Origin: Vandiemenella viatica
Lineage: Eukaryota; Arthropoda; Insecta; Orthoptera; Morabidae
Assembly (NCBI GenBank): GCA_031002005.1
Contig: CM061919.1
Location: 34,189,088-34,253,087 of the forward strand
DNA length: 64,000 bases
Direction: 5' to 3'
The translations under genes were made by a program, and so were the position numbers. The stretch's first letter is position 1. Each line of letters begins with the position of its first letter. Below, one piece after another: positions 18,699-51,323 of this stretch. The notes beneath the pieces are model-generated. The model worked only from the letters and a program-made list of their open reading frames with translations. It did no database searches and had not been told where the DNA came from.

Positions 18699-19991
18699 CG
18701 AGGGTGGTTTGAAAAGTTCTCGGAATCACCGCTAGATGTCAGTGCTAGAGCAACGAGGTTCCCGCGCAATAATCACACATCCTTTGTGAGTGAACACGTG
18801 GCGCGTCAGTGCTCTAGCTGCAGGAGTGTGGTAGTGACGACTCTTTGTTGTTGTCCCCGCGTAGTGATTTGTGACAATGGAAAAAACTGAGATTCGAGCA
18901 GTGATTAAATACTTTGTAAAGAAAGGTATGAAAGCAAACGAAATTCATGCCGACTTTCAGAACACACTAGGGGACTCTGCTCCTTCATTTTCAACTGTTG
19001 CCAAGTGGACCAGCGAGTTTAAATTTGGTCGGGAGAGCTTGGATGATGATCCACGTAGTGGAAGCCAAAAAGTGCTACGATCCCAGAATTTATCGAAAAA
19101 GTGCATAAAATGGTTATGGAGGATCGTCGACTGAAAGTGTGGGAGATTGCTGAAGCTGTAGGGATGTCTTCTGAACGGGTATATTATATTTTAACCGAAG
19201 AATTGTATATGAAAAAATTATCAGCAAGATGGGTGCCGCGGCTCTTGACACTGGGCGATAAACGCACCAGATTGGAAATGTCCTAACAAATTCTGGCCCG
19301 TTTTCAGAGCAACCAACAAGATTTTTTGCGCCGGTTTGTGACTACAGATGAAACTTGGGTCCACTACTATACCCCAGAGACAAAACAGCAGTCAAAACAG
19401 TGGAAACATGTTGATTCACCACCACCAAAGAAAGAAAAGGCAGTGCGTTCGGCCGGAAAGGACATGGCCTCAGTTTTCTGGGATGCAAAAGGCATTCTGC
19501 TGATACATTATGTTCATACAGGCCAAACAATCACGGCGCAATACTATGCAAACCTCCTTGACCAATTACAGGAAAGGATACGCGAAACAAAGCCAGGTTT
19601 GGCAAGGAAAAACGTCATCTTTCATCAGGACAACGCTCCGCCGCACAAAAGTGTTATTGCCATGGCAACACTTCATGAACTGAGGTACGAATTGTTGCCA
19701 CATCCACCTTATTCACCTGATTTGGCATCATCAGACTTTCATCTATTCCCCAAGCTGAAAAATTTCCTCGGTGGACGGAGATTTTCTACAAGGGAAGAAC
19801 TGACAGCCTAATTGGAGAGGTATTTTGCAGGCCTGGAGGAATCTCATTTTCGAGATGGGATCAAGGCATTGGAACATCGCTGGACCAAATGCCTTAGTCT
19901 ACAGGGAGACTATGTTGAAAAATAAAAGCAGTTCCATCGAGGTAAGATACTTAATTCTAATACATTCCGAGAACTTTTCAAACCACCCTCG
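18699..19991 (+). mobile_element. mariner transposon, complete ends
   Basis: 1293 bp, the usual mariner size. The inverted ends CGAGGGTGGTTTGAAAAGTT (left) and its complement (right, 19972-19991) match over about 27 bp through CTCGGAA. It is flanked by TA on both sides (18697-18698 and 19992-19993), the Tc1/mariner target duplication. A single transposase frame fills the interior. Confidence 0.95.
18877..19925 (+). pseudogene. mariner transposase, three disabling lesions
   Basis: Begins at ATG 18877 with an N-terminal helix-turn-helix (RAVIKYFVKKGMKANEI, then FSTVAKWTSEF). The second HTH follows (VWEIAEAVGMSSERVYYIL). The catalytic region shows TDETWVHYYTPE (first Asp), HQDNAPPH (second Asp) and SPDLASSDFHLFPKLK, giving the mariner DD34D arrangement with WVHYYTPE and YSPDLA signatures. 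It ends with HRWTKCLSLQGDYVEK and a stop at 19923. Lesions: a one-base deletion at about 19065 (frame change), a stop at 19284-19286, and a stop at 19809-19811. The sequence between lesions is well preserved, so the copy looks fairly young. Confidence 0.92.
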
Positions 19992-20067: not shown

Positions 20068-22184
20068 TTATTATTATTATTATTTTTTTTGGCCTTCGGT
20101 GAAGACGACCATATGGCCAGCATCAAATGTTTAAAGTTGTTTTACATACTTATCTTTGACATTTGCTAATAAATTATTTTCTGTACTTCTTATTACATTA
20201 CAAGTCTCATTGTATTGCATTTAACTTTTAAAATTGTTACATGTCAAATAGTTTTATCATACTCAACAAACTTGTTACTCATTTTTGTTCTTGGTAACTA
20301 GTATTACATGATAGAGTGATATTCTTAACCATTAAAACCTAATATCAGTTTCACTTAAGTAACGGGTTATTGCCCGTTAAACATCCTGTCACTCAGTTCT
20401 CAGCAGACCAGATATAGAAGAAGGCAGAGGTATTAAGCTTAACAATATTTTTACACATTTCGTTTTGTTGTCCCCTGTAACGGCCGCATCGGAGAATGAT
20501 GAGATTAATGTCTGCTACCTCATTTTGTTCTTCCGGGCAGAAAGGAGAATATAAATGTCCGATTTTGAATAGATGGCTAGAGTAGCACCTGTGTCCCTAT
20601 CTCATTCCAATGATTGATGTTTTGTGTCTTTTTCCCAATTTGGAGGATATGAACCAGGCTTTGGAATGAATGTGGGGTTGTATTTGAGAGTAATACATTC
20701 CTCTGCCGGTTTGCGAGCTAGCCCTCGAATCTGACCAGGCGCGAAAGGACTCTTTCTTGATAATTGATGTAAAGTCTGTATGAGGAAGCTGGATGTACTG
20801 TATCTCTCCATCTACTATACTTTCCTTAGCTAACTGGTCGACCGTTTCGTTGTGCTGAATACACGCATGTATCTTTATCCATAATAGGTGAATCTCTTTA
20901 CTCTCTGTGGAGGCTTAGTGGAGGTTTAGTATCTCTGATAAAGTATTGTTCAGAATGATCTGCCGTTTATGGTTTTCCAGTTTTTGAGACACACTTTTTG
21001 AATCCGATAGGATCAGAATTTTATCATGACGTTCATATCAGTATTTTATGGCCTCTCTGATTGCTAATGCCTCAGCCGTATATATAGTTGTTTCACATGG
21101 TAGGCGAACCTTCTTTGACTCCTGTGAGAATGGGCAGTAATAGACGTAGCCGACTCCATCTGAGGTTTTAGAGCCATCCGTGTAGATTTCTATAAAATCC
21201 GGCTAGGTTAGACTTAGAAAACTATCCGTCATGGAACTTGCTGAGTCACTTCCTATAATCCAATCTGGTAAGTTATATATATTTGATTTGAATCTGAGAA
21301 AATTATAATGAAATGAAAAGATGGGTATTATGTCATCTTGAATAAATAACGGTATCAGATGTTTTATTTTGTTAAGACTTTGCACTAACATAGGCTTTTT
21401 GGGACTGGTGAGAATACCTCTTCTGTCCAATGTTTTTGTGTATTCGATGACCCTCTGAATCACAGGATGGTTTGTGATGGACGCAAGTCTCATTAAATAT
21501 AGGTTGGATAGGAGCTGGCGGCGTTTATCTAGAGGCATTCCCCTCGCCTCTACTAGCAAGGCATTTGTTGGGGTGGATTTCATAGCTCCCAAGCAAAATC
21601 GGATAGCTCTGTGTTGTACTGTGTCCAGTTTGCATAAGGTAGTATTTCCATAAAAAAGAGCTTTCATAAACGAAGATAGGTCGAATGATTGCTCTATTGA
21701 AGTTGAGGAGGATGGCGCAATCGGCTCCCCACCAGATGCGCGTAACGGATCTTAAAGCATTCAAGTGGTATTCCGTTTTGGCTATAATGTTGTCTATGTG
21801 ACAGTTCTAAGTGATTTTACTATCCATATGTAAACCTAGATGTCTGACCGATGCTCGAACCGGGAAGATACGTAGGGCCTATATGGACCCAAGTGTATCT
21901 CCGTCTCTTGAATTTCTGGAGAAAATCACAACTGATGATTTCGACGGAGGCATGGTTAATCCTGGTTGTGGTAACCACTCGTGCAGCTTCTTGGCGGCTT
22001 CGTTCAATTTCCAGAAATTAATCCCCTGAGAGGGAGAAAAAGTTTATATGCATACATCATCTGAGAATTGCAGAACCTTTATTGTTGGGTTAAAAAAGTT
22101 TTCTAAATAAGCTGTAAAAATGGTAAACAGGATATGGCTAAGGATTGCCAGTTGTGGTAATCCCTTTGAAACGACGCGTTGTAC
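20068..22184 (-). mobile_element. I-like non-LTR retrotransposon, 3' part
   Basis: Minus-strand element. Its 3' end is a TAA-type simple repeat (ATT run on the plus strand, 20068-20084), as in I elements, preceded by a non-coding tail with a TGGTCGTCTTCACCGAAGGCC hairpin-like block. The 5' continuation was displaced to 35202-35435 by the 13 kb palindromic insertion. The flanking GTAC at 22181-22184 is one copy of that insertion's target duplication. Confidence 0.8.
20590..22180 (-). pseudogene. I-like reverse transcriptase and RNase H (broken)
   Basis: From 22180 downward: VVSKGLPQ and LSHILFTIFTA (RT motif B region), VLQFSDDVCI (FSDD in place of YADD), and LHMDSKIT and NALRSVTRIWWG (thumb). 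Then LDTVQHRAIRFCLGAM and EARGMPLDKRRQLLSNLYLMR, with the longest intact stretch at 21667-21203. The RNase H domain follows: IYTDGSK, TAEALAIREAIKY, ILILSDSKSV, and NETVDQLAKES near 20830. A short C-terminal region ends near 20600. Several stops and frame changes occur (near 21700-21830, 21185 and 20900). RT followed by RNase H plus the TAA tail places it in or near the I clade. Confidence 0.82.
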
Positions 22185-23469
22185 TACCATGCTCATATTA
22201 ATCCGAACGACCTGAATTGCACATCGCTACATTTCCTCCTGAGACTTATTCAACCCATTATACACATCTACGAAGACAGTACTATACCCTGGAGGTGGTA
22301 CAGTCTTACGACTATTAAAATTGAGCCACATCCACCTCCCATAAAACGAAATACATTTCCGCTTTTTTGTTTCATAAACCGAAATAGTGATTATATTTCG
22401 GCAATAAAAGAGTTATAGGAACATCGAATACGTTTCATTTACTGTTTTAAAGACATTTTACAGTTATTAAGTGTTCACACATAACACGAAAGTTACCAAT
22501 CTCAAACAAAATGCTGGTTTTTAGCAAGTACTGGATAACATCAAAATGCAGATTTTATACCCGTCTACAACAACTTAAAATAATTCGAAATTTACGTTAA
22601 TATTCAACGTTTGCTGTGTATTATAATTTTTGGAAACAGTACACACTTATCTAAGAGTTCAGTCAAATATATAACACGTAACAAGATTTCGGATTTAATA
22701 ATTTTGGCAGTGGTCTTGTAAGAATGCTTGCCTGTAAAAGTAATTCTTTTAGTTCTGTCGTTTCTCGAACATACTTAGCGTGGAACAATAGAAAAGAATC
22801 ATAACATTAATGTTCTGGCTGACGTGAGACACTGTCAACGCAGCATTCGTGAGTAGGATTTGAAAGACACTTTTCTATTAAATTTAACTTCACCGTAAAG
22901 GTTTCTGTCACTCAACATTCCCCATTTTTTCTAGTGCTCATAACAAAGTCGGGCGATTGATCATTGATGTAATACGTAATGATAACTGTTTAAAAATAAT
23001 CAAGGAACTAAATCAAACTAATGTGTCTATTGTGCGAAAAAGTTTTTTTTAGCTAATGTCCTTATTGTGCGACAACGATAATTTCTAGCCTGTGGTATTG
23101 GGAAGCAAATCAGAAATGAAATGGAAAGTGGCTGTTCTTACGAAAAAAATTCTCATCAAAGAAGAACATAAAATTCAAAGCTTCCGTATTTAAAAACATG
23201 CTGCTCCGACTAGTGATAGCTAATGATATAATTGATGCATAACCCAAACTGGGCATTATTCGTGGCATGGAGTTATCTTCCCTGTCCTATCGCGTTGACC
23301 GCTATCTCCGGGAGTCCGTAAAAAATTCGGTTTGCGGTAAGGGGCAAAATCGTTAACCGTAGCACAAAAAGAATATACGTTATTAAAGAAGTGCAGAAAT
23401 TTTAAAAGTTAATTCTGACGCATATCACCATTGATGAAAAGTTTCTTTAATTTTATTTCCTAGATTTAA

Positions 23470-24640
23470 AATTCCAAGAAATAAACAGTAAATTCCAGGA
23501 ACGAGGAAAGATAATGCCTGCCTCGTTATTAGTTTCTCCTACCTCAGCTTCCGTCTCTGGTAAGCCTGCCGCTATGGTGCTGTAATTGGCTCAGGTTCGG
23601 GGATGCTGATTGCTGATCCCGGAAGCTACGAGGTGCGATGTCTTGCGGTTCCACGGTTCGAGTCAGCCGAGGGCAAAAGTGGTTAAATGATGCGTTATGT
23701 TTTTCTTGGGTTACCCGTACACTGGGACAGTGAAAACATATTTTATACCTATTGGGAAGTTGAAATTACAAATTTCTGCCTGTATCTATTGTGAAATCGA
23801 AATTCGTTGTTATTCTTCAATAAAGTCACTATTATTTCAAAGGCACGGAAGAGGCTGTATTCTAAAAAGGTAACCGAATTCGGCGACGATATTTGAGAAA
23901 TGGCCGCCATTCCTCATTCCATTGAGTAATTTCGAGAATTTTTATTTAAACAGAATTTTTGATAGCCAGATCGTGAGTGTGAATTGACTACTGTCTAGTG
24001 CCACTGATGAAATTTACCCTTCACCCAATTCGTTCAGCTATTAATTAATGTAAAATTCCGGGAAATAAACAATAACTTTCAGGAACGAGGAAAGATAATG
24101 CCAAGGTGTTTATGCGTTGTAGCTACCTCATCTTATCTTCCGTCTCTGGTAAGCCTGACGCGATGGGACGGTAAGTGGCTCATATTCGCGGAAGCAGATC
24201 CCGGAAGCTAGTGCGTTGTCTCGTGGTTCCACGGTTCGAGTCGTGCCGCGGGAAAAAGTGGTTAAACGATGCGTTATGTTTTTCTTGTGTTACCCGTACA
24301 CTGAGACAGTAAAAACGTATTATACACCTATTTATACGTTAAAATTACAGATTTCTGCCTGTATCTATTGAGCAATCCAAATTCATCGTTATTTTTCTGT
24401 AAAGTCATTATTATTGCAAAGGCCTGGAATAAATTAGTTTTTTTTTTTTTTTTTTTTTGAAATGTAAACGAATTGGTCCACGGTCGTTGAGAAGTGGCAA
24501 TTCCCCATTCCTATGAGTATTTTCGGAATTTTGTTTTATTTAAACCGAAACTTTTTTGGCTGGAACGTGAATGTGACTTGACTACTGTCTAATGCCGCTG
24601 AAGAACTTTGCCTATTTGTTTGATGAACATTAAACACAAT
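23470..24640 (+). repeat. Two tandem copies of a ~580 bp unit (left arm)
   Basis: Copy 1 is about 23470-24045 and copy 2 about 24055-24640. Shared blocks in order: GGAACGAGGAAAGATAATGCC, TTCCGTCTCTGGTAAGCCTG, CGGTTCCACGGTTCGAGTC-like, GATGCGTTATGTTTTTCTTG, CCCGTACACTG, TTTCTGCCTGTATCTATTG. The GGTTCGAGTC block fits a pol III B box. Copy 2 holds an 18-base T run. Confidence 0.85.
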
Positions 24641-25939
24641 CAAAATTTAATTTAAAACTGCTGGTATCTGTATGTATTGACGTATTAACTCATTGTATGC
24701 TGAATTGACACTAAAGTAAATACAATCATGTTGTGGATACTGAAATTTGTAACAATCTAGTCTTAAAGTATAAATTGTTCGCGATCATTCATTTCGCCAA
24801 AGTGTAAAGTAAAAGGTTTGTTTCCTCAAAGTTGTGGAAAAATGATAGCCAGTATATAGACGTCATAACATCCACGAGGACTATGAGAAAGAAGAGTGGT
24901 TTTATAAATATCCTACGTTTCATTTATTCTAAACAAAAATCTATCAGTTTCTAAATTTTTTAAATTTTTTATCCCAAGATAAATATTATAACAGAAAGAA
25001 ATAGTGCCACTTATTTTTTCGTAATGTTTTGTTAATAGAAAACTTAAAAAATTACGTGTCAGCTGATAGATGACGATAGCACTATCAAGCACCACATTGT
25101 AATTAATTATAAGGATTTATAGTTTGTCTCAGTTACACTCGGCAAGTGATGTGTGGTAGGATCATCATGAGGAAATAGGGCTGTTTACACACAGCGTTGA
25201 ACGCGCAACCTTTCCGTGAACGGCTCGTATGGAATATCCATTCCCAGGATATTCCTACTTCTTAAAGAATGCATAATCATTAATTTTCTATATATACTTG
25301 TACAGTCTTTGCATTAAATGTGGACAGCGCTGTCATGTTCTATCAGTCTTTTTGCACAATCTGGCAGCAATCTCATCCCAGGAAAGAGTAAGGCAATGCT
25401 GGCTCCGCCTTTTGGCAATATCATTGGGGGATATTTCATTCAGAGCCATCTATATTTCAGATTATTCATTTCCGTAAGTCAATGCATGAAACAAAACTGG
25501 AATTAAGCTCCTCCCCACTGACGATTCATAATGGCGGGGTAGTTCATCAACCTTCCCCTACATTTCAATAACACTTTAAATAAATTCAGATCGTAAAACC
25601 TATCGCAAAAGTTGTAATTAACGGGAATGCATTAAAGCGAGGCAAAAAATAACCCCTAAGGCTCCGTTCTACTTTTTACTACAACTGAGAAGCGTAAAAC
25701 TTAAACGATCATTATTTACATACTGGTTTGGCTAATGCCTTCCGATAATATTTCGCTCATAATGTGGTCTGTGGACAAACCAGCGAATAACCATTTTCGA
25801 GAAGGTAGAATGTTTAGTACTACGAAACGACAGAAACAAGAGATTATTTCGAAAAAGATTGAATGAAACAGTCTTCCTAGACAGCATTGTTAACAAACTG
25901 ACGAGTAGGTATCAAGCTTGAACGGGGGGGGGGGGGTGT

Positions 25940-25998
25940 CCTGTGGTTAGCGTTGTGGTTTTCTGAACCTGCGGTTCAAGGTTCAAATCCACATATTT
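25940..25998 (+). repeat. tRNA-like segment in the left arm
   Basis: GTGGTTAGCG resembles a pol III A box and GGTTCAAATCC a B box, about 35 bases apart. A G run precedes it. It does not fold convincingly as a tRNA, so a tRNA-derived SINE remnant is more likely. Confidence 0.4.
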
Positions 25999-26893
25999 CA
26001 TATTTTTAAAATTTTTTCCCCTTTTATAAGTTCCGAACCTACACTATGCTTATGCATATTATATATTCTTGATTCCTTCCAAACTGCCTCAGGGAATAAG
26101 ATTCTTAACGAATCTCTTATAACCGAAAATATCAAATGATTTTTAACCAACTACAAACATGAAAGTAAACACTTTTGCGGCGGCAGCGCTGAGAGAAAGC
26201 TACTCTGGTTCCCAGCCACGCCGAAATCAGATCGTCTGTCCCATTTCCAACTGTACACGTTTATCGAAAATAATCATTTCACAGCAGAACGAATTTCACG
26301 TGTCAGAAACAATTAATTTATCGTTGGAATTATGTCTCTAATTTTAAGCCATGTCTATCATTAATTCTGTAGGTGGTCTATAATGATCATACACCGTCGT
26401 CAAGGAAAACAAAAATATAATGTAAAAACATGAAAGGAAATCGCATAGAAGCAAACATTAGTACTGTAACAAATTAAATGACCATTGTCACTCAAAAATT
26501 TAAAACCAGGTTATTATCGTAGGACTAGCATAAATTCTTTTATTGCTGGTATAAGTAAAGAAAGTTAATTGAGAATCGGGATTGAAGCAGTGAGTTCTAA
26601 AATTACTGCTTTACAGCGTAGCGACCTGATACCTGCGGGATTTAATAACTCATTACTTAATAAATCATATAATTTTTGTGTTATTCTTTGTTTGCGATTA
26701 CTTCAGTATAATAACACCACCATTTGGCGAAGAAAGATGTCGCCACTCGTGTGAGTGTTCTTTAGTCTCGTGTGTGAAGTGGAACGGTGACGTTTTGTCT
26801 CCCGTGATAGTCGAATCCAAAATAGACTAAGCCACAAAAATTCAAACAAACACAGCCTACCGGTAAAGAAAGTTCGACAGTGCCTTAGGACCG

Positions 26894-27145
26894 GAGGACC
26901 GAGCGTAGTGGATGAGCCTTAACGCTCTGGCCTCGCATTCGGGAGGAGGCGGGTTTGAATACCCGTCCGACTATTAGAGGCGGAAAAGGACTAGTGGCAA
27001 GGATTTCACCAATGGCCTTTAAGGAATCATTCCAGTATTCACATAGAGTGGTTTGGGGAAACCGTTGAAACCCCAAATCTGGATGGCCGGACTAGGATTC
27101 CAACCTGTGTCCTCCCGAATGAGAGGCCAGAGCGTCAAAGCGTCT
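26894..27145. repeat. Inverted pair of tRNA-derived SINE pieces (left arm)
   Basis: 26894-26966 carries the plus-strand SINE head (ACCGAGCGTAGTGGATGAG, then a GGGTTTGAATACC B-box-like block). 27020-27145 carries the same family on the minus strand (GGTTTGGGGAAACCGTTGAA and CTCCCGAATGAGAGGCCAGA). It is the same family as 58964-59222, and the pair is mirrored at about 29730-29981. Confidence 0.7.
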
Positions 27146-27765
27146 ACAAGAATGCGTGTGTCGAATGGTGATGAGGTAGAAAATTGTATAATTGTTCAGC
27201 CCTTTAAACGATGTATACATTGAAGAAAGTAAATTGAAACTTTGCTTGGGAGACCTTAGATTTTGGATTTCCCTCTTACAGTTAACATGGATTACCATTG
27301 TATTTTTAATTTCCAGCTGTGACTTGCAGTCTTAAGTTGGATAATAAAACTTCAGCCGAATTTGCTGCTCGTGATGAATTATTACGTGTATTATTTGCGT
27401 TATAAAGGTGTTCTTCTTAGCCGAAGGAAACAGGAAAGTTCACACTTATTTCCTCCTGCAACGCTGCCAATTCTACTTCCTCCAACGTTGTCACGATTTC
27501 TGACTTCTGGCAGTGCTCCGGAAATTCCTATACAAGGAATCGTGTCTCATAGCTAGGCGATATCATAAGAAGAGACACATTGCCCAAATGGAAAATTATT
27601 TTTCTTCCACGTCTCATATTTTTATTTAACTGATTTTTTTTCTGTTTTTAACAGTTTGATTCTTAATACAGATTATCAATAACTATTCATTCACGAGATT
27701 TTGTATCTATATATATCTTCACTTTGGTAATATAATGGACGAAGCACGTCTGTTTATAAAGGCGG

Positions 27766-27832
27766 AGTGGCTGAACGGTAATGCGCTAACCTGTGGAGCT
27801 GTTGATCCTTGGTTCGATCCCACTTGCGGTTG
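27766..27832 (+). repeat. tRNA-like segment with A and B boxes (left arm)
   Basis: TGGCTGAACGG fits the A box and GGTTCGATCCC the B box with near-normal spacing. The acceptor and anticodon stems do not pair well, so I do not call a tRNA gene. It is mirrored at about 29043-29109. Confidence 0.45.
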
Positions 27833-28342
27833 AATATTTTTTCATTCATTATTTCCTTTTCACTTGTTGCAAAATACATATCGTATGTATATACGTATAG
27901 AAAAACTTATTATATCTTACGGCAAATTGTTTAAAAATAAATTCTAATATCAAGCGCGAATACACTTGTCATCGGATGTCTCAGTCCACTAATGTAGCAG
28001 CATCTTTAGTTGTTTATCGTGAAGACAGATTCATTTAGCACTCCATATGAAAAACTTTTTGTTAGCAGTTTATAGGCCACATCGACGATAAAATGTGTGT
28101 ATTTGGAATTTAAAATACTGTTCAGCCAATATAATCTGACGAGTTTAGTGCATTTTAGTGCCGTAAAGGCAGAGAGTACATTTGGAGTTGTTCATGGGAA
28201 CCTGCAAGATTAATCACTGCTGTTTAATTTCTCGCTTGATCGGACAAAGAAGCTATTATTTTTAATTTTTTTTTAAATTTTGGATCTGTGTTTTCAATAC
28301 GTTGTGAGTTAGGAATTTTTTTTGCAAATGCCTCTTCAAGTA

Positions 28343-28532
28343 TCTAGAATTTTCTCAAACACGGCTAGTTCTTGGAGTCTGGCGCAAACACAGTAAACAT
28401 CTGTATCCAATGGTATCGCTGTGAAATTCTCCTTCTAAATGCCAATTTCATTTCTAAGGTAGATGTGAAACTACAAGGCTGTTGGTTGCACATAGCTGCT
28501 CTTTTTTTTAACGCTAATTATATGGTATTTCC
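28343..28532. other. Central spacer of the 13 kb palindrome
   Basis: Unpaired sequence between the arms, about 190 bp, with no ORF or recognisable motif. A short spacer between 6 kb arms would extrude easily as a hairpin. Confidence 0.8.
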
Positions 28533-29042
28533 CTGACGCCTTGGAGAGGCATTTACAAAAATTTCCTAACTCACAACATATTGAAATCACAGATCCAAAA
28601 TTAAAAAAATTAAAAATAATAGTTTCTTTGTCGGATCAAGCGAAAAATTAAACAGCAGTGATTAATCTTGCAGGTTCTCATGAACAACTCCAAATGTACT
28701 CCCTGCCTTTACGGCACTAAAATGCACTAAACTCGTCAGATTATATTGGCTGAACAGTATTTTAAATTCCAAATACACACATTTTATCGTCGATGTTGCC
28801 TATAAACTGCTAACAAAAAGTTTTTCATATGGAGTGCTAAATGAATCTGTCTTCACGATAAACAACTAAAGATGCTGCTACATTAGTGGACTGAGACATC
28901 CGATGACAAGTGTATTCGCGCTTGATATTAGAATTTATTTTTAAACAATTTGCCGTAAGATATAATAAGTTTTTCTATACGTATATACATACGATATGTA
29001 TTTTGCAACAAGTGAAAAGGAAATAATGAATGAAAAAATATT

Positions 29043-29109
29043 CAACCGCAAGTGGGATCGAACCAAGAATCAACAGCTCCACAGGTTAGCGCATTACCGT
29101 TCAGCCACT
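29043..29109 (-). repeat. tRNA-like segment (right-arm mirror)
   Basis: Inverse copy of 27766-27832 with one or two base changes. The B box complement GGGATCGAACC is at about 29053-29063. Confidence 0.45.
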
Positions 29110-29729
29110 CCGCCTTTATAAACAGACGTGCTTCGTCCATTATATTACCAAAGTGAAGATATATATAGATACAAAATCTCGTGAATGAATAGTTATTGAT
29201 AATCTGTATTAAGAATCAAACTGTTAAAAACAGAAAAAAAATCAGTGAAATAAAAATATGAGACGTGGAAGAAAAATAATTTTCCATTTGGGCAATGTGT
29301 CTCTTCTTATGATATCGCCTAGCTATGAGACACGATTCCTTGTATAGGAATTTCCGGAGCACTGCCAGAAGTCAGAAATCGTGACAACGTTGGAGGAAGT
29401 AGAATTGGCAGCGTTGCAGGAGGAAATAAGTGTGAACTTTCCTGTTTCCTTCGGCTAAGAAGAACACCTTTATAACGCAAATAATACACGTAATAATTCA
29501 TCACGAGCAGCAAATTCGGCTGAAGTTTTATTATCCAACTTAAGACTGCAAGTCACAGCTGGAAATTAAAAATACAATGGTAATCCATGTTAACTGTAAG
29601 AGGGAAATCCAAAATCTAAGGTCTCCCAAGCAAAGTTTCAATTTACTTTCTTCAATGTATACATCGTTTAAAGGGCTGAACAATTATACAATTTTCTACC
29701 TCATCACCATTCGACACACGCATTCTTGT

Positions 29730-29981
29730 AGACGCTTTGACGCTCTGGCCTCTCATTCGGGAGGACACAGGTTGGAATCCTAGTCCGGCCATCCAGATTT
29801 GGGGTTTCAACGGTTTCCCCAAACCACTCTATGTGAATACTGGAATGATTCCTTAAAGGCCATTGATGAAATCCTTGCCACTAGTCCTTTTCCGCCTCTA
29901 ATAGTCGGACGGGTATTCAAACCCGCCTCCTCCCGAATGCGAGGCCAGAGCGTTAAGGCTCATCCACTACGGCTCGGTCCT
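29730..29981. repeat. Inverted pair of SINE pieces (right-arm mirror)
   Basis: Mirror of 26894-27145 with a few substitutions. An open frame over this stretch reflects the repeat only. Confidence 0.65.
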
Positions 29982-30160
29982 CCGGTCCTAAGGCACTGTC
30001 GAACTTTCTTTACCGGTAGGCTGTGTTTGTTTGAATTTTTGCGGCTTAGTCTATTTTGGATTCGACTATCACGGGAGACGAAACGTCACCGTTCCACTTC
30101 ACACACGAGACTAAAGAACACTCACACGAGTGGCGACATCCTTCTTCGCCAAATGGTGGT

Positions 30161-30662
30161 ATCTATTTATGTTATTAAACAAACAAAGGAGATAGCATAC
30201 AAATCTCTTGTGCGTCCACATTTGGACTATTGTTGTGCCATCTGGGATCCGTTTCGTAAGGGGCTGATTGAGAGTACAGAGAAAGTACAGAGAAGAGCCG
30301 CTCGATTCGTGACCACTTGCTACAGTCCTTATGAAAGCGTCACAGAACTGATTAGTAGACTAGGCTGGGAGTCTCTGGTAGATAGACGACGCACGTTTCG
30401 TATAAACTTATTGATAAACATGCGTACTGCCCACTTTCACTTAAGAGTGTAGTGAAATACTTCGTCCACCAACCTATTTGAGTCGGAATGACAGGAAAGA
30501 TAAAATCAGAGAAATAAGGTGCCGCACTGATTCTTATATGAATTCTTTTTTTCCTCGTACCATTAGGGATTGGAATGCACAACAAAGAGATTAGGTTTGG
30601 TGCTGAGCACCCTCTGCCACCCACTGTTTTCTGATTTGCAGAGTATATATGTAGATGTAGAT
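30161..30662 (+). mobile_element. CR1-like non-LTR retrotransposon fragment, right arm only
   Basis: Absent from the left arm, where ACCACCATTTGG and ACTTCAGT are separated by only 8 bases. It encodes the C-terminal part of a reverse transcriptase: YKSLVRPHLDYCCAIWDP, VQRRAARFV and SVTELISRLGWESLVDRRR. A frame-shifted tail follows, reading SFF.RTIRDWN-like near 30540-30580. It ends in a GTAGATGTAGAT simple repeat, the usual tail of this insect family. It is 5'-truncated and inactive, and inserted after the palindrome formed. Confidence 0.85.
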
Positions 30663-31374
30663 ACTGAAGTAATCGCAAACAAAGAATAACACAAAAATTG
30701 TATGATTTATTAAGTAATGAGTTATTAAATCCCGCAGATATCAGGTCGCTACGCTGTAAAGCAGTAATTTTAGAACTCACTGCTTCAATCCCGATTCTCA
30801 ATTAACTTTCTTTACTTATACCAGCAATAAAAGAATTTATGCTAGTCCTACGATAATAACCTGGTTTTAAATTTTTGAGTGACAATGGTCATTTAATTTG
30901 TTACAGTACTAATGTTTGCTTCTATGCGATTTCCTTTCATGTTTTTACATTATATTTTTGTTTTCCTTGACGACGGTGTATGATCATTATAGACCACCTA
31001 CAGAATTAATGATAGACATGGCTTAAAATTAGAGACATAATTCCAACGATAAATTAATTGTTTCTGACACGTGAAATTCGTTCTGCTGTGAAATGATTAT
31101 TTTAGATAAACGTGTACAGTTGGAAATGGGACAGACGATCTGATTTCGGAGTGGCTGGGAACCAGAGTAGCTTTCTCTCAGCGCTGCCGCCGCAAAAGTG
31201 TTTACTTTCATGTTTGTAGTTGGTTAAAAATCATTTGATATTTTCGGTTATAAGAGATTCGTTAAGAATCTTATTCCCTGAGGCAGTTTGGAAGGAATCA
31301 AGAATATATATTATGCATAAGCATAGTGTAGGTTCGGAACTTATAAAAGGGGAAAAATTTTTAAAAATATGAAA

Positions 31375-31433
31375 TATGTGGATTTGAACCTTGAACCGCA
31401 GGTTCAGAAAACCACAACGCTAACCACAGGACA
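31375..31433 (-). repeat. tRNA-like segment (right-arm mirror)
   Basis: Inverse copy of 25940-25998, with GGATTTGAACC as the B box complement and an adjoining C run. Confidence 0.4.
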
Positions 31434-32734
31434 CCCCCCCCCCCCCGTTCAAGCTTGATACCTACTCGTCAGTTTGTTAACAATGCTGTCTAGGAAGACT
31501 GTTTCATTCAATCTTTTTCGAAATAATCTCTTGTTTCTGTCGTTTCGTAGTACTAAACATTCTACCTTCTCGAAAATGGTTATTCGCTGGTTTGTCCACA
31601 GACCACATTATGAGCGAAATATTATCGAAGGCATTAGCCAAACCAGTATGTAAATAATGATCGTTTAAGTTTTACGCTTCTCAGTTGTAGTAAAAAGTAG
31701 AACGGAGCCTTAGGGGTTATTTTTTGCCTCGCTTTAATGCATTCCCGTTAATTACAACTTTTGCGATAGGTTTTACGATCTGAATTTATTTAAAGTGTTA
31801 TTGAAATGTAGGGGAAGATTGATGAACTACCCCGCCATTATGAATCGTCAGTGGGGAGGAGCTTAATTCCAGTTTTGTTTCATGCATTGACTTACGGAAA
31901 TGAATAATCTGAAATATAGATGGCTCTGAATGAAATATCCCCCAATGATATTGCCAAAAGGCGGAGCCAGCATTGCCTTACTCTTTCCTGGGATGAGATT
32001 GCTGCCAGATTGTGCAAAAAGACTGATAGAACATGACAGCGCTGTCCACATTTAATGCAAATACTGTACAAGTATATATAGAAAATTAATGATTATGCAT
32101 TCTTTAAGAAGTAGGAATATCCTGGGAATGGATATTCCATACGAGCCGTTCACGGAAAGGTTGCGCGTTCAACGCTGTGTGTAAACAGCCCTATTTCCTC
32201 ATGATGATCCTACCACACATCACTTGCCGAGTGTAACTGAGACAAACTATAAATCCTTATAATTAATTACAATGTGGTGCTTGATAGTGCTATCGTCATC
32301 TATCAGCTGACACGTAATTTTTTAAAGTTTTCTATTAACAAAACATTACGAAAAAATAAGTGGCACTATTTCTTTCTGTTATAATATTTATCTTGGGATA
32401 AAAATTTTAAAAAATTTAGAAACTGATAGATTTTTGTTTAGAATAAATGAAACGTAGGATATTTATAAAACCACTCTTCTTTCTCATAGTCCTCGTGGAT
32501 GTTATGACGTCTATATACTGGCTATCATTTTTCCACAACTTTGAGGAAACAAACCTTTTACTTTACACTTTGGCGAAATGAATGATCGCGAACAATTTAT
32601 ACTTTAAGACTAGATTGTTACAAATTTCAGTATCCACAACATGATTGTATTTACTTTAGTGTCAATTCAGCATACAATGAGTTAATACGTCAATACATAC
32701 AGATACCAGCAGTTTTAAATTAAATTTTGATTGT

Positions 32735-33905
32735 GTTAATGTTCATCAAACAAATAGGCAAAGTTCTTCAGCGGCATTAGACAGTAGTCAAGTCACATTC
32801 ACGTTCCAGCCAAAAAAAAAAAAAAAAGTTTCGGTTTAAATAAAACAAAATTCCGAAAATACTCATAGGAATGGGGAATTGCCACTTCTCAACGACCGTG
32901 GACCAATTCGTTTACATTTCAAAAAAAAAAAAAAAAAAAAAAAAAAACTAATTTATTCCAGGCCTTTGCAATAATAATGACTTTACAGAAAAATAACGAT
33001 GAATTTGGATTGCTCAATAGATACAGGCAGAAATCTGTAATTTTAACGTATAAATAGGTGTATAATACGTTTTTACTGTCTCAGTGTACGGGTAACACAA
33101 GAAAAACATAACGCATCGTTTAACCACTTTTTCCCGCGGCACGACTCGAACCGTGGAACCACGAGACAACGCACTAGCTTCCGGGATCTGCTTCCGCGAA
33201 TATGAGCCACTTACCGTCCCATCGCGTCAGGCTTACCAGAGACGGAAGATAAGATGAGGTAGCTACAACGCATAAACACCTTGGCATTATCTTTCCTCGT
33301 TCCTGAAAGTTATTGTTTATTTCCCGGAATTTTACATTAATTAATAGCTGAACGAATTGGGTGAAGGGTAAATTTCATCAGTGGCACTAGACAGTAGTCA
33401 ATTCACACTCACGATCTGGCTATCAAAAATTCTGTTTAAATAAAAATTCTCGAAATTACTCAATGGAATGAGGAATGGCGGCCATTTCTCAAATATCGTC
33501 GCCGAATTCGGTTACCTTTTTAGAATACAGCCTCTTCCGTGCCTTTGAAATAATAGTGACTTTATTGAAGAATAACAACGAATTTCGATTTCACAATAGA
33601 TACAGGCAGAAATTTGTAATTTCAACTTCCCAATAGGTATAAAATATGTTTTCACTGTCCCAGTGTACGGGTAACCCAAGAAAAACATAACGCATCATTT
33701 AACCACTTTTGCCCTCGGCTGACTCGAACCGTGGAACCGCAAGACATCGCACCTCGTAGCTTCCGGGATCAGCAATCAGCATCCCCGAACCTGAGCCAAT
33801 TACAGCACCATAGCGGCAGGCTTACCAGAGACGGAAGCTGAGGTAGGAGAAACTAATAACGAGGCAGGCATTATCTTTCCTCGTTCCTGGAATTTACTGT
33901 TTATT
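32735..33905 (-). repeat. Two tandem ~580 bp units (right-arm mirror)
   Basis: Inverse copy of 23470-24640. The A run at about 32921-32946 is longer than the matching T run of the left arm. Confidence 0.85.
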
Positions 33906-35201
33906 TCTTGGAATTTTAAATCTAGGAAATAAAATTAAAGAAACTTTTCATCAATGGTGATATGCGTCAGAATTAACTTTTAAAATTTCTGCACTTCTTT
34001 AATAACGTATATTCTTTTTGTGCTACGGTTAACGATTTTGCCCCTTACCGCAAACCGAATTTTTTACGGACTCCCGGAGATAGCGGTCAACGCGATAGGA
34101 CAGGGAAGATAACTCCATGCCACGAATAATGCCCAGTTTGGGTTATGCATCAATTATATCATTAGCTATCACTAGTCGGAGCAGCATGTTTTTAAATACG
34201 GAAGCTTTGAATTTTATGTTCTTCTTTGATGAGAATTTTTTTCGTAAGAACAGCCACTTTCCATTTCATTTCTGATTTGCTTCCCAATACCACAGGCTAG
34301 AAATTATCGTTGTCGCACAATAAGGACATTAGCTAAAAAAAACTTTTTCGCACAATAGACACATTAGTTTGATTTAGTTCCTTGATTATTTTTAAACAGT
34401 TATCATTACGTATTACATCAATGATCAATCGCCCGACTTTGTTATGAGCACTAGAAAAAATGGGGAATGTTGAGTGACAGAAACCTTTACGGTGAAGTTA
34501 AATTTAATAGAAAAGTGTCTTTCAAATCCTACTCACGAATGCTGCGTTGACAGTGTCTCACGTCAGCCAGAACATTAATGTTATGATTCTTTTCTATTGT
34601 TCCACGCTAAGTATGTTCGAGAAACGACAGAACTAAAAGAATTACTTTTACAGGCAAGCATTCTTACAAGACCACTGCCAAAATTATTAAATCCGAAATC
34701 TTGTTACGTGTTATATATTTGACTGAACTCTTAGATAAGTGTGTACTGTTTCCAAAAATTATAATACACAGCAAACGTTGAATATTAACGTAAATTTCGA
34801 ATTATTTTAAGTTGTTGTAGACGGGTATAAAATCTGCATTTTGATGTTATCCAGTACTTGCTAAAAACCAGCATTTTGTTTGAGATTGGTAACTTTCGTG
34901 TTATGTGTGAACACTTAATAACTGTAAAATGTCTTTAAAACAGTAAATGAAACGTATTCGATGTTCCTATAACTCTTTTATTGCCGAAATATAATCACTA
35001 TTTCGGTTTATGAAACAAAAAAGCGGAAATGTATTTCGTTTTATGGGAGGTGGATGTGGCTCAATTTATAATAGTCGTAAGACTGTACCACCTCCAGGGT
35101 ATAGTACTGTCTTCGTAGATGTGTATAATGGGTTGAATAAGTCTCAGGAGGAAATGTAGCGATGTGCAATTCAGGTCGTTCGGATTAATATGAGCATGGT
35201 A

Positions 35202-35435
35202 GTACATAAAGAGAGTTGTCTTGCGGACGAACATAGACAGTCCTGCAAAGGAGTAGATTAGAAATTCCACGTAAATATCTATCCAGGATACGCAGTTTCC
35301 TGAGCTTCTCGATTAAAAATGTGATGGGGACGTTGTCGTACGCTCCTGTTATGTCCAGGAATAGGGCTGCCAGGTATTCTTTATTCATGTAGGACTGTTG
35401 TATGTCTAGTGTGAGGATACTGAGGTGCAGTAACA
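35202..35435 (-). pseudogene. I-like reverse transcriptase, upstream part cut off by the palindrome
   Basis: The minus strand reads LTLDIQQSYMNKEYLAALFL, with DITGAYDNVPITFL (RT motif A) following directly, then LLLCRTVYVRPQDNSLY at the junction with GTAC 35202-35205. The frame continues at 22184 with VQRVVSKGLPQ. The 5' end of this piece at about 35435 abuts a hAT-family fragment. The rest of the element (N-terminal RT, endonuclease, ORF1) is not in the window. Confidence 0.85.
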
Positions 35436-35562
35436 AAAAGTTATGAGATCTTGTTCTGAGCCATCCCTACATTTTATAGTGTGTACATCTCACTTTCTGA
35501 AACAGAATGGTTTCTATCTGATTTGCAGATCGTTTATTTAGATTAAAAATATCTTGTAACTT
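35436..35562 (+). repeat. Fragment of the hAT-like family seen at 43261 and 51324
   Basis: AAAAAGTTATGAGATCTTGT and TTCTGAGCCAT, then a CTCACTTT.TGAAA block and CGTTTATTTAGA, parallel 52180-52300 in the same orientation and 43640-43760 in inverse orientation. No transposon end is visible here. Confidence 0.65.
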
Positions 35563-44956: not shown

Positions 44957-46279
44957 ATTATGTCACAAAGCTGAGACATTGCTCCTCATAATCGTACATA
45001 ATTTATCGATTTTGCCTCGAAAAACAAAAAACGAATTTTAGAAAAATTGATATATTTGAAGGGCCGAATTACGATAAATTACAATTCTTAAAATATAATG
45101 TTACCACGGCGGAGGCCTTATTCTTTAAATTGATACGTCATTTGTCTATTTCCGTTAGATATTAAGAGAGAAAAATCGCTCGTGACACAAAAATGTGTTA
45201 TAGAAAAATTTAAACTATTTTCCTCTAAGGGTTGAATTCCAAAAACATTCTTTCTTAAAATATGATATCACCAAAGTTGAGACATTACTCCTCACAACCC
45301 TACTTCATTTATCGATTTTGGCTAGATATCCAGGGAAATAAATGGCTGGAGATACAAAATACGCATTTTGGTGAAATAGATATTTTTGCGCTTCAAAGGT
45401 CGAAACATTCGTTTGTTAAAATGTAATGTTACCACTGCTGAGACGTTATTCTCTAATATGATTCGTGATTTATCTGTATCGGTTAGATATTAAGGGAGAT
45501 AAATCGCTCGTGACACAAAAATGCGTTATCTAGATATTTAAACTTTATCCATGTAAGGGTTGAAATTCAATAACTTCTTTCCTAAAATATGATTTCATCA
45601 AATCTGAGACAATATTCCTCATCATATGCCTTGATTTTTCAATTTTGGATGGATATCAGAGTGATGAGAGTTTCTACACACAAAAAAATCATTTTTAAAT
45701 CAATGACAGTTTTGCCTTTTATGGGTCGAATTACGAAAAATTCCTTTCTTAAATATAATTTTACTACGGCGGAGACTTTATTCTTTAATATGATATCCCA
45801 TTTTTCTATACCGGTTAGATATTACGGGAAATAAATCACTTGTGAAAAAAAAATGGGTTATAGAATACCAAAAACTCTTTCCTAAAATATGATTTCACCA
45901 AAGCTGAGACAATATTTCTCAAAGTCTGCCTTGATTTGTCACTTTTGGATAGATATACAGGGAGATAAGAGGTTCTAAACAAAAATAACGCATTTTAGAA
46001 AAAATAAGAATGTTTCCATTTAAGGATCGAATTACGAAAAATACCTTTCTCTAAAATTAATGTTACCACGGCAGAGGCCTTATTCTTTAATATGAAACCT
46101 CATGTGTCTATATCGGTTAGATATTAAGGGAGAAAAATAGCTCGTGACACAAAAATGCGTTATATAAAAATTAATACCTTTTCCCTTTAAGAGTTGAATT
46201 GCAAAATCAGTCTTTCTTAAAGTATAATATCACAAAGCTGAGACATTACTCCTCATAATCCTACCTCATTTATCGATTA
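44957..46279 (-). repeat. Dimeric ~330 bp satellite, reverse-oriented block
   Basis: About four units of the same satellite as 52723-57905, on the minus strand. Marker blocks ACCACGGCGGAGG-like recur near 45103, 45430, 45765 and 46065. It reaches copy A on the left and the Penelope pair on the right. Confidence 0.9.
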
Positions 46280-47099
46280 GGAACCATATGCTCGAGTGCC
46301 CTATGTGCCCATCATCCTGCAAAAACGAAGACCTGTTTCAAGCAACACACAATGCGATTGAGGTTGTGAAGTACTGGGCTAAGTGTGTTTAAAGTTGTTG
46401 ATTTTCATAATGTATTACACTGTGTAATATTTTGTCCATGGTGGACTTGTGGAATCAGCGACTGTGATATCAAATTTGGTTGATAATTGAATACAGCGAC
46501 CAGTCACAGTTTATGGTGTTGCTTTATTTTATTTTTCCATTACTGGTTTCAAGTATACATTGCTCATCATCAGATGGTTTTAAGAATACAGATGCGAATT
46601 GCAGGCGTGTTTTAGTGTCCTAGAATAACAAAAATATGATGATTGACGAAAGAATTTAAATCTGGAGTGATGATAGTAAAACTTGGTATATAACTTACAT
46701 TAGGTGTCTGCTGTTATCCGAAAACAAAGACTTGTATGTAACACAGTTGAGGAGGCACATTTTTGTGTAACACTATGCACTATCACCATTATATTGCACA
46801 AATATATGTGGAATAGACACGCTGCACACTTGCTACTGTATTTACAAACAAACATGACAGAGACGTTTATATACAAAGAAGTATTTACAAAGAGGTTTAT
46901 ACAGACAGTAATGTATAATTAATAAAAAATTAGATATGATAACAAAATTGAACTTAATTCTATAACTATATTGGTATAAACGGAATAATGAATAACAATC
47001 AAAATTATAAATAGTTGTTGAATTTAATATGCATATAGTAATATGTATTTCGGCATATGGGAGACATGTATTATTTAATGTGTTATTTATTAGCGAATA

Positions 47100-48985
47100 G
47101 GTCTATAAAATTGAACAGGAATGCTTTATTAGAAAGATCTTTTTGTTCATTTAAAAGGTGGGATGGCAATATCTTATCGTGAATGTATATTTCAAGTTCC
47201 TCAAGGATATCCATTTTCTTCCCTTTGTCTGCAATACGAATGATCTGTAGATTTTCTTCTATAGTGGGTGGGGAATAATTTCATTTAATATGTGGGCAGC
47301 AAAAGTGGACTTATCTGTGTTGCATAGTCTAATGGCATCAAGGTGTTCTTTTTAAAACGTATAGAAAAGTTTCTACCTGTTTGACCCACATACGTCTATG
47401 AGCATGTTGTGCATGTTATTTTATAAATGCCAGATTTATTATAGTATGAATTAGATATTTGAGTGTTGTGAATAAGTTTATTTTGGAGCTTGTTATCTGT
47501 GTTAAAGCTAATATTAACATTATTATTTCGAAATAGGTTTGCAATGTTGTAAGATATTTTACCTAAATAAGGGATATTGGAGTAAATTTGTTTTATATTT
47601 ATAGGTTGATATAGTTGGTAAAAAGGGGATTGCTAAGCTGTGTGTTGTGAATTTAGGAGGGCTTTTCTATTTTTAATTATGTGTGATAGGTTTTCAATTA
47701 AAGATGGCTTGAAACCATTGTTGTGAGCAATAGTTTTTATAATCTGCATTTCTTTAAGAAAATCAGTAGTGTCCATGGGTATTTCATATGCACGGTGTAT
47801 TACAGAGTTGAAAAATGACATTTTGTGTTGTGTGGGGTGGCAAGAGCTATTGTTAATGGTGACATCAGTGGTGATGGGCTTTCTATAAATCTTAAGTTAT
47901 GTTTATGTTCAAACTGAATAATTTTTAGGTCAAGAAAGTTAATGGAATCTTTCTCTTGGTGTTCTACAGTAAATGTTATGTTCTTATTCATATTGCTTAG
48001 ATCTTCAGCAAGGGCCTCAATCTCTTTTTCAGTACGATTAAATAGTAGAATTGTGTCATCAACATATCTTTTATAGTAGATGATTTTATGTGTTAGGTGT
48101 TTGTTATTATTGAAAAACATGTTTTCAAGATGGTTAATGTAGATGTCTGCTAGTAAGCCTGCAAGGTTGCTTCCCATTGCAAGTCCATCATCTTGCTTAT
48201 ATATTTTATTATTGAATATAAAGTAATTGTATGAGAGAACAAGAGAGAATAGCTCTATGAGCTCATATGTTTCAGGCAGGGATAATTTCTTGTGCTTTAT
48301 TAAGTTGTATTTTATAATTTAAACAGTGTCTATGATTGGAATATTTGTATAAAGATTAAAAATAACTAGGAAAGCTAGCCTGGCAGTGGTAGGTATGGTG
48401 ATGTTTTTAATATTCTGTATTAGCTGATGGCTTTTTTTCACTGTGTATGTATTTACAAATGTATAGTTATTTGAGAGGATTTCATTAGGTTTTTTACATA
48501 GTTTGGATGGTTGGCTGTTTTTAGAGTTCACAATAGGGTGGATAGGGTGATTGGCTTTATAAATTTTAGGTTGTGACCTCAATTTAGGTGGTGATTAAGC
48601 TAAGGAAAAAGAAAACTGCTTTAGGCAATATAATTACAAGGAAATGGAAAATGGCTCATAACTCACCAAAGTTGAAGGCAGTGACGAAAGAATAACATAT
48701 ATAACGAACACACAAACTCAATATTTCGGTTATTTAACCTAATTCATGATGAAGAAAATGAGTCATGAGGCTCGGGAGGTGTGCACACATCGAGGATTGC
48801 TTAGGTGGTGTGGGGTTCATGACAAGACACTTTTGCTTTTCTGTTTCATATAGGAGGAATGTACAACTTTTGGGTAGTTTTCTAATTTCACTTTGAAGTT
48901 TAGTGGTAGGATCTTTCTTAAGTTCTTTTATTCCATTGTTATTAAAGAATACAACTGTTTTACTAATATAGTCAGACTTGTACAT
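47100..48985 (-). pseudogene. Penelope-like reverse transcriptase, minus copy
   Basis: From 48985: an N-terminal stretch (KTVVFFNNNGIKELKKDPTT and KLQSEI), then PIVNSKNSQPSKLCKKP, RLAFLVIFNLYTNIP (motif A region; the Asp of the usual FLDI is V.I here), GLAMGSNLAGLLADIYINHL (motif B), RYVDDTILLF (motif C), NFLDLKI, and the C-terminal block ending at 47633. A GIY-YIG domain follows in other frames down to about 47370. Breaks near 48600 and 48315, then several before the endonuclease, make it inactive. Confidence 0.85.
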
Positions 48986-48995
48986 GACAACTGCA

Positions 48996-50060
48996 GACCC
49001 ACCACTACCAGGCTAGCTTTCCTAGATATTGTTAATCTTTATACAAATATTCCAATCATAGACACTGTTCAAATTATAAAATACAACTTAATAAAGCACA
49101 AGAAATTATCCCTTCCTGAAACATATGAGCTCATAGAGCTTTTCTCTCTTGTTCTCTCATACAATTACTTTATATTCAATAATAAAATATATAAGCAAGA
49201 TGATGGACTTGCAATGGGAAGCAACCATGCAGGCTTACTAGCAGACATCTACATTAACCATCTTGAAAACATGTTTCTCAAAAATAACAAACACCTAACA
49301 CATAAATTCATCTACTCTAAAAGATATGTTGATGACACAATTCTACTATTTAATGGTACTGAAAAAGAGATTGAGGCCCTTGCTGAAGATCTAAGCAATA
49401 AGCATAAGAACATAAAATTTACTGTAGAACACCAAGAGAAAAATTCCATTAACTTTCTTGACCTAAAAATTACTCAGTTTGAACATAAACATAAGTTTCA
49501 GATTTATAGAAAGCCCACCACCACTGATGTCACCATTAACAATAGCTCTTGCCACCCCACACAACACAAAATGTCATTTTTCAACTCTGTAATACACCGT
49601 GCATATGAAATACCCATGGACACTACTGATTTTCTTAAAGAAATGCAGATTATAAAAACTATTGCTCACAACAATGGTTTCAAGCCATCTTTAATTGAAA
49701 ACCTATCACACATAATTAAAAATAGAAAAGCCCTCCTAAATTCACAACACACAGCTTAGCAATCCCCTTTTTACCAACTATATCAACCTATAAATATAAA
49801 ACAAATTTACTCCAATATCCCTTATTTAGGTAAAATATCTTACAACATTGCAAACCTATTTCGAAATAATAATGTTAAAATTAGCTTTAACACAGATAAC
49901 AAGCTCCAAAATAAACTTATTCACAACACTCAAATATCTAATTCACACTATAATAAATCTGGCATTTATAAAATTACATGCACAACATGCTCACAGAACT
50001 TTGTGGGTCAAACAGGTAGAAACTTTTCTATACATTTTAAAAAGAACACCTTGATGCCAT
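48996..50060 (+). pseudogene. Penelope-like reverse transcriptase and GIY-YIG endonuclease, plus copy
   Basis: Open from the junction at about 48996 to 49759. It shows RLAFLDIVNLYTNIPI (motif A with Asp), DDGLAMGSNHAGLLADIYIN (motif B), RYVDDTILLF (YVDD active site), INFLDLKITQF, and KPTTTDVTINN with CHPTQHKMSFFNS, the Penelope-type thumb signatures. A stop at 49757-49759 and a frame change separate this from the endonuclease, which reads KSGIYKITC then FVGQTGRNFSIHF (GIY...VG signature) at about 49955-50040. The N-terminal region is missing. The catalytic core is the best preserved coding region of the Penelope pair. Confidence 0.88.
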
Positions 50061-51114
50061 TAGACTATGCAACACAGATAAGTCCACTTTTGCTGCCCAC
50101 ATATTAAATGAAATCATTCCCCACCCACTATAGAAGAAAACCTACAGATCATTCGTATTGCAGACAAAGGGAAGAAAATTGATATCCTTGAGGAACTTGA
50201 AAATATACATTCACGATAAGCTAATGCCATCCCACCTTTTAAATGAACAAAAAGATCTTTCTAATAAAGCATTCCTGTTCAATTTTATAGACCTATTACG
50301 CTAATAAATAACACATTAAATAATACATGTCTCCCATATGCCCAAATACATATTACTATATGCATATTAAATTCAACAACTATTTATAATTTTGATTGTT
50401 ATTCATTATTCCGTTTATACCAATATAGTTATAGAATTAAGTTCAATTTTGTTATCATATCTAATTTTTTATTAATTATACATTACTGTCTGTATAAACC
50501 TCTTTGTAAATACTTCTTTGTATATAAACGTCTCTGTCATGTTTGTTTGTAAATACAGTAGCAAGTGTGCAGCGTGTCTATTCCACATATATTTGTGCAA
50601 TATAATGGTGATAGTGCATAGTGTTACACAAAAATGTGCCTCCTCAACTGTGTTCCGTACAAGTCTTTGTTTTCGGATATCAGCAGACACCTAATGTAAG
50701 TTATATACCAAGTTTTACTATCATCACTCCAGATTTAAATTCTTTCGTCAATCATCATATTTTTGTTATTCTAGGACACTAAAACACGCCTGCAATTCGC
50801 ATCTGTATTGTTAAAACCATCTGATGATGAGCAATGTATACTTGAAACCAGTAATGGTAAAATAAAATAAAGCAACACCATAAACTGTGACTGGTCGCTG
50901 TATTCAATTATCAACCAAATTTGATATCACAGTCGCTGATTCCACAAGTCCACCATGGACAAAATATTACACAGTGTAATACATTATGAAAATCAACAAC
51001 TTTAAACACACTTAGCCCAATACATCGCAACCTCAATCACATTGTGTGTTGCTTGAAACAGGTCTTTGTTGTTGCAGGATGATGGGCACATAGGGCACTC
51101 GAGCATATGATTCA

Positions 51115-51323
51115 TAATCGATAAATGAGGTAGGATTATGAGGAGTAATGTCTCAGCTTTGTGATATTATACTTTAAGAAAGACTGATTTCGCAATTCAA
51201 CTCTTAAAGGGAAAAGGTATTAATTTTTATATAACGCATTTTTGTGTCACGAGCTATTTTTCTCCCTTAATATCTAACCGATATAGACACATGAGGTTTC
51301 ATATTAAAGAATAAGGCCTCCGC
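51115..51323 (+). repeat. Satellite fragment between Penelope pair and copy B
   Basis: Less than one satellite unit (from AATCGATAAATGAGG to AATAAGGCCTCCGC), an inverse match of 46070-46279. Confidence 0.9.

Follow-up and report, generated by a model that had tools for sequence, protein, structure and literature searches.

Kilobase palindromes are usually considered too unstable to persist. What, then, is the near-perfect 13-kb palindrome that interrupts a retrotransposon in the morabine grasshopper Vandiemenella viatica, and did it arise where it now lies or arrive there as a mobile unit? We addressed this question in a 64,000-nucleotide stretch of contig CM061919.1 (assembly GCA_031002005.1), hereafter the window. 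The first-pass annotation of this stretch had proposed a single transposed unit that might be a new giant foldback class, a hairpin replicative product, or an inverted dimer of a shorter element. We conclude that the window element was inserted very recently and is a copy of a large nonautonomous foldback-type DNA transposon, and we assign a probability of about 0.83 to this reading including the mechanism set out below. The foldback-type label is based on structure, and the element is assigned to no superfamily.

Structure of the palindrome

Alignment of the arms and the coordinates of both ends confirmed the annotated palindrome of 13,017 bp with GTAC on each side. The inverted repeat spans 22180-35206 and the element proper 22185-35201; TACCATGCTC opens the element at 22185, and the same sequence in reverse complement closes it at 35201, so that the termini read TACC...GGTA. 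The element and its host, a long interspersed nuclear element (LINE), comprise the following features:

21780..22180, minus strand: host LINE, downstream reverse-transcriptase part, split by the insertion
22181..22184, no strand: left copy of the GTAC target duplication
22185..28341, plus strand: left arm (arm a), starting TACCATGCTCATATTAATCCGAACGACCTG, without the 493-bp LINE-like piece
23464..24429, plus strand: two diverged direct repeats in arm a (23464-23850 and 24048-24429), 81% alike
28342..28540, plus strand: central spacer, 199 bp, 97-98.5% identical to that of five other full copies
28541..35201, minus strand: right arm (arm b), left-arm sequence in reverse complement with one piece inserted
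30168..30660, no strand: piece of about 493 bp, present only in arm b of the window copy
32956-33918: arm-b mirror of the arm-a direct repeats
35202..35205, no strand: right copy of the GTAC target duplication
35206..35466, minus strand: host LINE, upstream reverse-transcriptase part (Pfam RVT_1, E 1.7e-4, below the curated cut-off)
TACCATGCTCATATTAATCC: end sequence of the element

The arms are 6.2-6.7 kb long. Their outer parts (22180-26709 and 30661-35206) are 99.36% identical over 4,548 alignment columns and their inner parts (26710-28340 and 28540-30167) 98.5% identical over 1,633. Besides the piece of about 493 bp, the two arms of this copy are distinguished by 27 substitutions, small insertions or deletions, and the length of poly-T; the outermost 2.2 kb are identical except for one insertion or deletion. 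The spacer, first given as 190 bp, measured 199 bp. By eye, the reading frame of the 493-bp piece resembles the 3' part of a non-long-terminal-repeat retrotransposon; the piece had zero Pfam matches in six-frame scans. Rfam and transfer RNA scans of the window returned 0 matches.

Genome-wide distribution of the family

To determine how widely the element occurs, we searched the window's own assembly (3.72 Gb, 8,965 contigs). The 20-base end GTACTACCATGCTCATATTA gave 1,688 matches at two or fewer mismatches, compared with 20 for the reversed control, and a 24-mer starting after GTAC gave 1,076 exact matches, compared with 0 for its control. The family is large and variable, with copies of 1.7-20 kb. 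A 19-base end pattern had 0 matches in a set of viral contigs from which the window's own genome records were possibly left out. Searches of open-licence papers on GTAC duplications, superfamilies with 4-bp duplications, and palindromic or foldback giants turned up no description of such a family, and among the papers listed for GTAC duplications only one, on Galileo, looked relevant. Loci are numbered L; some are also called E9 (L009), E10 (L010 and L011), E12 (L012 and L013), E14 (L014 and L015), and E16 (L016, L017, and L018), and L023 and L028 were completed by L054 and L053, respectively.

Target site and length of the duplication

When the flanks are joined with one GTAC, a single open frame of 133 amino acids runs across the reverse-transcriptase region of the host LINE, as the first-pass annotation had argued. 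A join that keeps 7 bp is also in frame (134 amino acids), and frame restoration alone therefore cannot fix the duplication length. We then examined the empty site in ten LINE paralogues, 10 of the 39 others listed, which were 82-86% identical to the query. Exactly 4 bp stand at the junction in eight of the ten (GTCC in six, TTCC in two), and the remaining two are without the junction stretch. These 4 bp occur once in the paralogues, whereas GTAC occurs twice in the window copy. Models with zero duplication or a 7-bp duplication are ruled out by these sites. The duplication is shown to be GTAC or the TA inside GTAC; the GTAC on both sides reported by the first-pass annotation stands, and the 4-bp empty site fits either length.

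The same tetranucleotide was found at other insertions. In the stretch covered by both end listings, each limited to the first places and one made with a query without GTAC, exact GTAC preceded 90 of 94 ends. The four exceptions, each with one end known, read CCAC, GTTC, GTAG, and GTTC. Both sides carried GTAC in all 19 copies with both ends in hand, a nonrandom sample in that 17 comprise the window itself and copies retrieved with queries beginning with GTAC. Ends preceded by GTTC numbered only 4 exact matches genome-wide, and no partner end was found within 8 kb downstream of two of these four. Among 46 flanks, position −6 was A or T in 45 (binomial p = 3e-8) and position −5 was G or T in 39 (p = 1e-6; ten positions were looked at and p values are uncorrected). 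Given this base bias, the target is the longer palindrome WKGTACMW. Palindromic target motifs that reach beyond the duplication have been reported as general for Drosophila elements with terminal inverted repeats (PMC3276498).

These data bear on two other classes of transposon. It is improbable that the family is of Tc1/mariner type, with ends CTACCATG..., a 2-bp TA duplication, and a marked bias towards a G in front of the TA and a C behind it. GTAC does have TA as its two middle bases, a 2-bp duplication would leave the same empty site as a 4-bp one, and Tc1/mariner elements always duplicate TA (PMC10741241). However, the exact GTAC before 90 of 94 ends is stricter than the adjoining flank positions, and two of the four exceptions, both GTTC, contain no TA, a weak point since one end is known for each. 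A P-superfamily element like Galileo, with target GTANTAC and ends CATGCTC... after GTACTAC, is very unlikely. Galileo, a foldback-like P element, has inverted ends that are long and variable and inserts at GTAGTAC/GTANTAC (PMC2775673, PMC4168063), the targets of the P element and 1360 start with GT and end with AC (PMC3276498), and the 7-bp join likewise keeps the LINE frame. Against this, all 19 copies with both ends in hand read GTACTAC on the left and GTAGTAC on the right, an inverted rather than a direct repeat, and the LINE paralogues have 4 bp where a duplication of 7-8 bp would require more.

The palindrome moves as one unit

We sought the spacer in 26 sequences. Two full arms enclose it in six of these: the window, E10, E14, E16, L023, and L028. 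These full copies are 12.9-13.5 kb long, except for E16, which carries extra internal sequence and reaches 19.9 kb. L020 and L036 have a partial or diverged spacer, and the other 18 sequences had no spacer match. The flanks differ among all six full copies, each of which is bounded by GTAC on both sides. Seven arm-specific differences, each at most 162 bp from the inner arm end, agree across the six copies when these are oriented by the spacer (at two of the seven sites, one or two arms are without a letter). Because differences beside the centre are in phase at six loci, the whole palindrome transposes as a unit. It predates the spread of the six copies and spread whole, which upholds the single transposed unit first proposed. 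The window copy has zero private substitutions in either arm, and its insertion is therefore very recent.

The same comparison bears on how the palindrome is propagated. Copying through a self-primed hairpin, that is, by replicative transposition and not by cut and paste, could account for copies in which one arm resembles its partner more than it resembles any other copy (6 of 18, and also E16). Yet copies are bounded by GTACs with ends intact on both sides, and all six full copies keep the arm differences adjacent to the centre, which hairpin copying of one arm would erase. Nothing was found in support of this earlier option, and we consider it highly improbable. An immobile inverted dimer, made at the window locus by aberrant transposition or template switch, would have the near-identical arms and short spacer observed, but the spacer, arms, and arm-specific differences are common to six loci with different flanks, which excludes a dimer formed at this locus and leaves inverted duplication as the likely founding event of the family. 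An assembly artefact, either an inverted chimera or a collapsed repeat, is scarcely credible: the phased arm differences recur in six full palindromes that are each bounded by GTAC and set in unlike flanks, and the window copy inserts cleanly into a LINE, even though a gap of 1,000 N lies in or beside the element at 7 of the 15 loci examined. These gaps indicate that the assembler struggles with such palindromes.

Probable copying between arms

Arm-to-arm divergence in the last 215 bp by the centre was 4.7-7.4% across the six full copies. In the seven other arm segments it was at most 2% in 36 of 42 segment-by-copy cells, with a maximum of 4.2%, and divergence of the same arm between copies was 1.0-2.0% in every segment. 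Substitutions private to one copy and present in both of its arms numbered 28 in E16 and 4 in E14. In the first 400 bases of 18 copies, the two ends of a copy were mutually closest in six and tied in two. The LINE-like piece is found in arm b only in four of the six full copies (window, E10, E16, and L028) and in both arms in E14 and L023; in these two, transfer of the piece from arm b to arm a is the simplest explanation.

At sites 3144, 3388, 5959, and 6138 (arm b numbering), arm b of the window copy has the base found in both arms of E14 and L023, and arm a has the base found in both arms of E10, E16, and L028. This mosaic suggests exchange between copies.

Derivatives and diverged subfamilies

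Strongly unequal arms were found in 6 of the 13 copies tabulated (E9, L031, L033, L035, L036, and L052), and the inverted end of L031 is only 163 bp. Such arms would fit asymmetric sequence loss from breakage near the palindrome centre.

Two diverged subfamilies, L029/L032 and L034/L057, were also detected. L029, L032, and L034 have only about the first 300 bp in common with the window arm at about 79%, plus short dispersed matches, and there is hardly any difference from the window arm in the first 45 bases. Over most of L057, identity to L034 is 88-90%; L057 has outer arms of 2.4 kb at 97.6% and further internal inverted stretches at about 80%, so the long palindrome is probably old in L057 too. 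L020 has a young-type arm on one side of a 1,000-N gap and an arm of about 72-83% similarity on the other; it is either a hybrid palindrome or a misjoin.

Search for a transposase

Pfam scans returned nothing credible in the six frames of arm b or in the interiors of L032 and L034, where one match in L032 was below threshold (E 0.019), in agreement with the earlier finding of no recognizable protein gene. Ten open reading frames of the arms yielded two sub-threshold, chance-like Pfam matches only. The LINE-like piece, itself without a Pfam match, is unusable as a positive control for these scans. We also listed open frames in the window, 15 loci (at least 130 amino acids; part of the listing), 8 short copies, four interiors, two GTTC-flanked copies, two more loci, and central slices of five long elements. 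Judged by eye, and with L051 and L052 left out, these lists held only retrotransposon or mariner-like fragments.

Comparison with known systems

Three features place the family among foldback elements. The inverted ends form most of the element in the six full copies and vary in extent among the derivatives; a target duplication lies on both sides; and the element is without a transposase of its own, as judged by Pfam in arm b and two diverged interiors. The giant foldback structure proposed by the first-pass annotation is supported. Foldback elements are already known; what is unusual here is arms of 6.2-6.7 kb that fill the whole element, together with the GTAC target.

The nearest system, in architecture and even in target, is Galileo of Drosophila (P superfamily). 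Galileo likewise has long, variable, extensible inverted ends whose termini are the most conserved part, most of its copies are without a working transposase, and its palindromic target motif contains GT...AC (PMC2775673, PMC4168063). In contrast, Galileo duplicates 7-8 bp (GTANTAC; PMC2775673, PMC4168063) where the empty site here is 4 bp, and in the full copies of the window's family the arms are practically the whole 13-kb element. Tetris/DAIBAM of D. virilis is also a noncoding foldback element with internal arm repeats, and its autonomous partner was not found; its duplications, however, are 8-10 bp, and its authors assigned Tetris to Mutator (PMC4079207). Mutator, with duplications of 7-12 bp (PMC10741241), was rejected for the family described here on account of its 4-bp empty site, and Ginger, with TG...CA termini (PMC10741241), on account of its TACC...GGTA termini.

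Sola elements, compared here by description only, have 4-bp duplications, inverted ends of up to 1.1 kb, and in some cases lengths above 15 kb (PMC10741241). The empty site in the LINE is consistent with the 4-bp trait, or with 2 bp within it; Sola is defined by a DDD transposase, none of which was found in the sequences scanned here. piggyBac resembles the family in its strict palindromic 4-bp target, which is TTAA (PMC5199201), and differs in that the target here is GTAC. The target of Kolobok is also TTAA, and it differs from the family in the same way.

Other features of the window

Further repeats and gene fragments lie outside the element. A second, unrelated inverted duplication (46074-48397 and 48994-51320; 2.3 kb at 97.7%) has Pfam RVT_1 in both arms (E 1e-7 and 4e-8) and is Penelope-like by eye. 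A dense, diverged repeat array with a period of about 330 bp occupies 52723-57324 and 62176-63324 (about 75-85% alike); these repeats also occur inverted at 45012-46281, and 61176-62175 is a stretch of 1,000 N. A mariner-type transposase fragment is found at 19287-19808 (Pfam Transposase_1, E 6e-23). An open frame at 3113-3514 looks by eye like part of a Toll/interleukin-1 receptor, namely its membrane and TIR region; Pfam at E 0.01 returned no match, and a protein search no relative.

Discussion

Several observations weigh against the foldback transposon proposed here. Regarding the target, GTAC was found in none of the eight informative LINE paralogues; because no paralogue reads GTAC, the host copy would have mutated to GTAC before the insertion. 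The 4-bp length is likewise not proved by the empty site, since a 2-bp TA duplication within GTAC predicts an identical one. Regarding the arms, four of the six full copies (window, E10, L023, and L028) have no private substitutions present in both arms, and the counts of substitutions private to a single arm are 0 (window), 42 (E10), 24 (E14), 82 (E16), 14 (L023), and 69 (L028). The outermost kilobase differs between arms by 0.9-1.3% in E10, E14, L023, and L028, against a between-copy mean of 1.34%. Ten of the 18 copies compared over their first 400 bases do not have their own ends mutually closest; six of these ten belong to a nearly identical young group, and two others, L031 and L052, have inverted ends shorter than 400 bp. 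The step in divergence near the centre could alternatively reflect a palindrome in which only the innermost 215 bp had diverged when it formed. Regarding the enzyme, no transposase was found in the arms, in two diverged interiors, or in the open frames listed, and a codon-position and insertion/deletion test on two L034 relatives gave no coding signal (lowest p = 0.045 in 18 segments tested). With respect to the arms, we infer conversion between arms in some copies, not constant correction of all.

Under the foldback transposon reading, a trans-acting transposase encoded elsewhere in the genome would bind the conserved first 45-110 bp of the ends, and would cut and paste the element through a 4-base staggered cut at GTAC. 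The palindrome would have been founded once, when one arm was duplicated in inverted orientation around the spacer. Later, the arms may at times have been copied onto each other, less so directly beside the centre, and asymmetric or central deletions would yield the shorter derivatives. A bolder proposal, which we put forward tentatively and regard as rather unlikely, is that GTAC targeting is as strict as the TTAA targeting of piggyBac and is carried out by an undescribed kind of transposase, with the kilobase palindrome as the ancestral, maintained unit of several subfamilies and not a product of decay.

A 13-kb palindrome that stands whole at no fewer than six places is a natural record of palindrome maintenance and decay, written in the in-phase differences close to the centre, in traces of arm-to-arm copying, and in unequal deletions. 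If the enzyme is found, the strict GTAC target would add a new targeting rule to those available for transposition tools. Assembly gaps, such as those at 7 of the 15 loci examined, may be due to elements of this kind. By inference, such elements could also cause inversions, as Galileo does, or give rise to long hairpin RNA.

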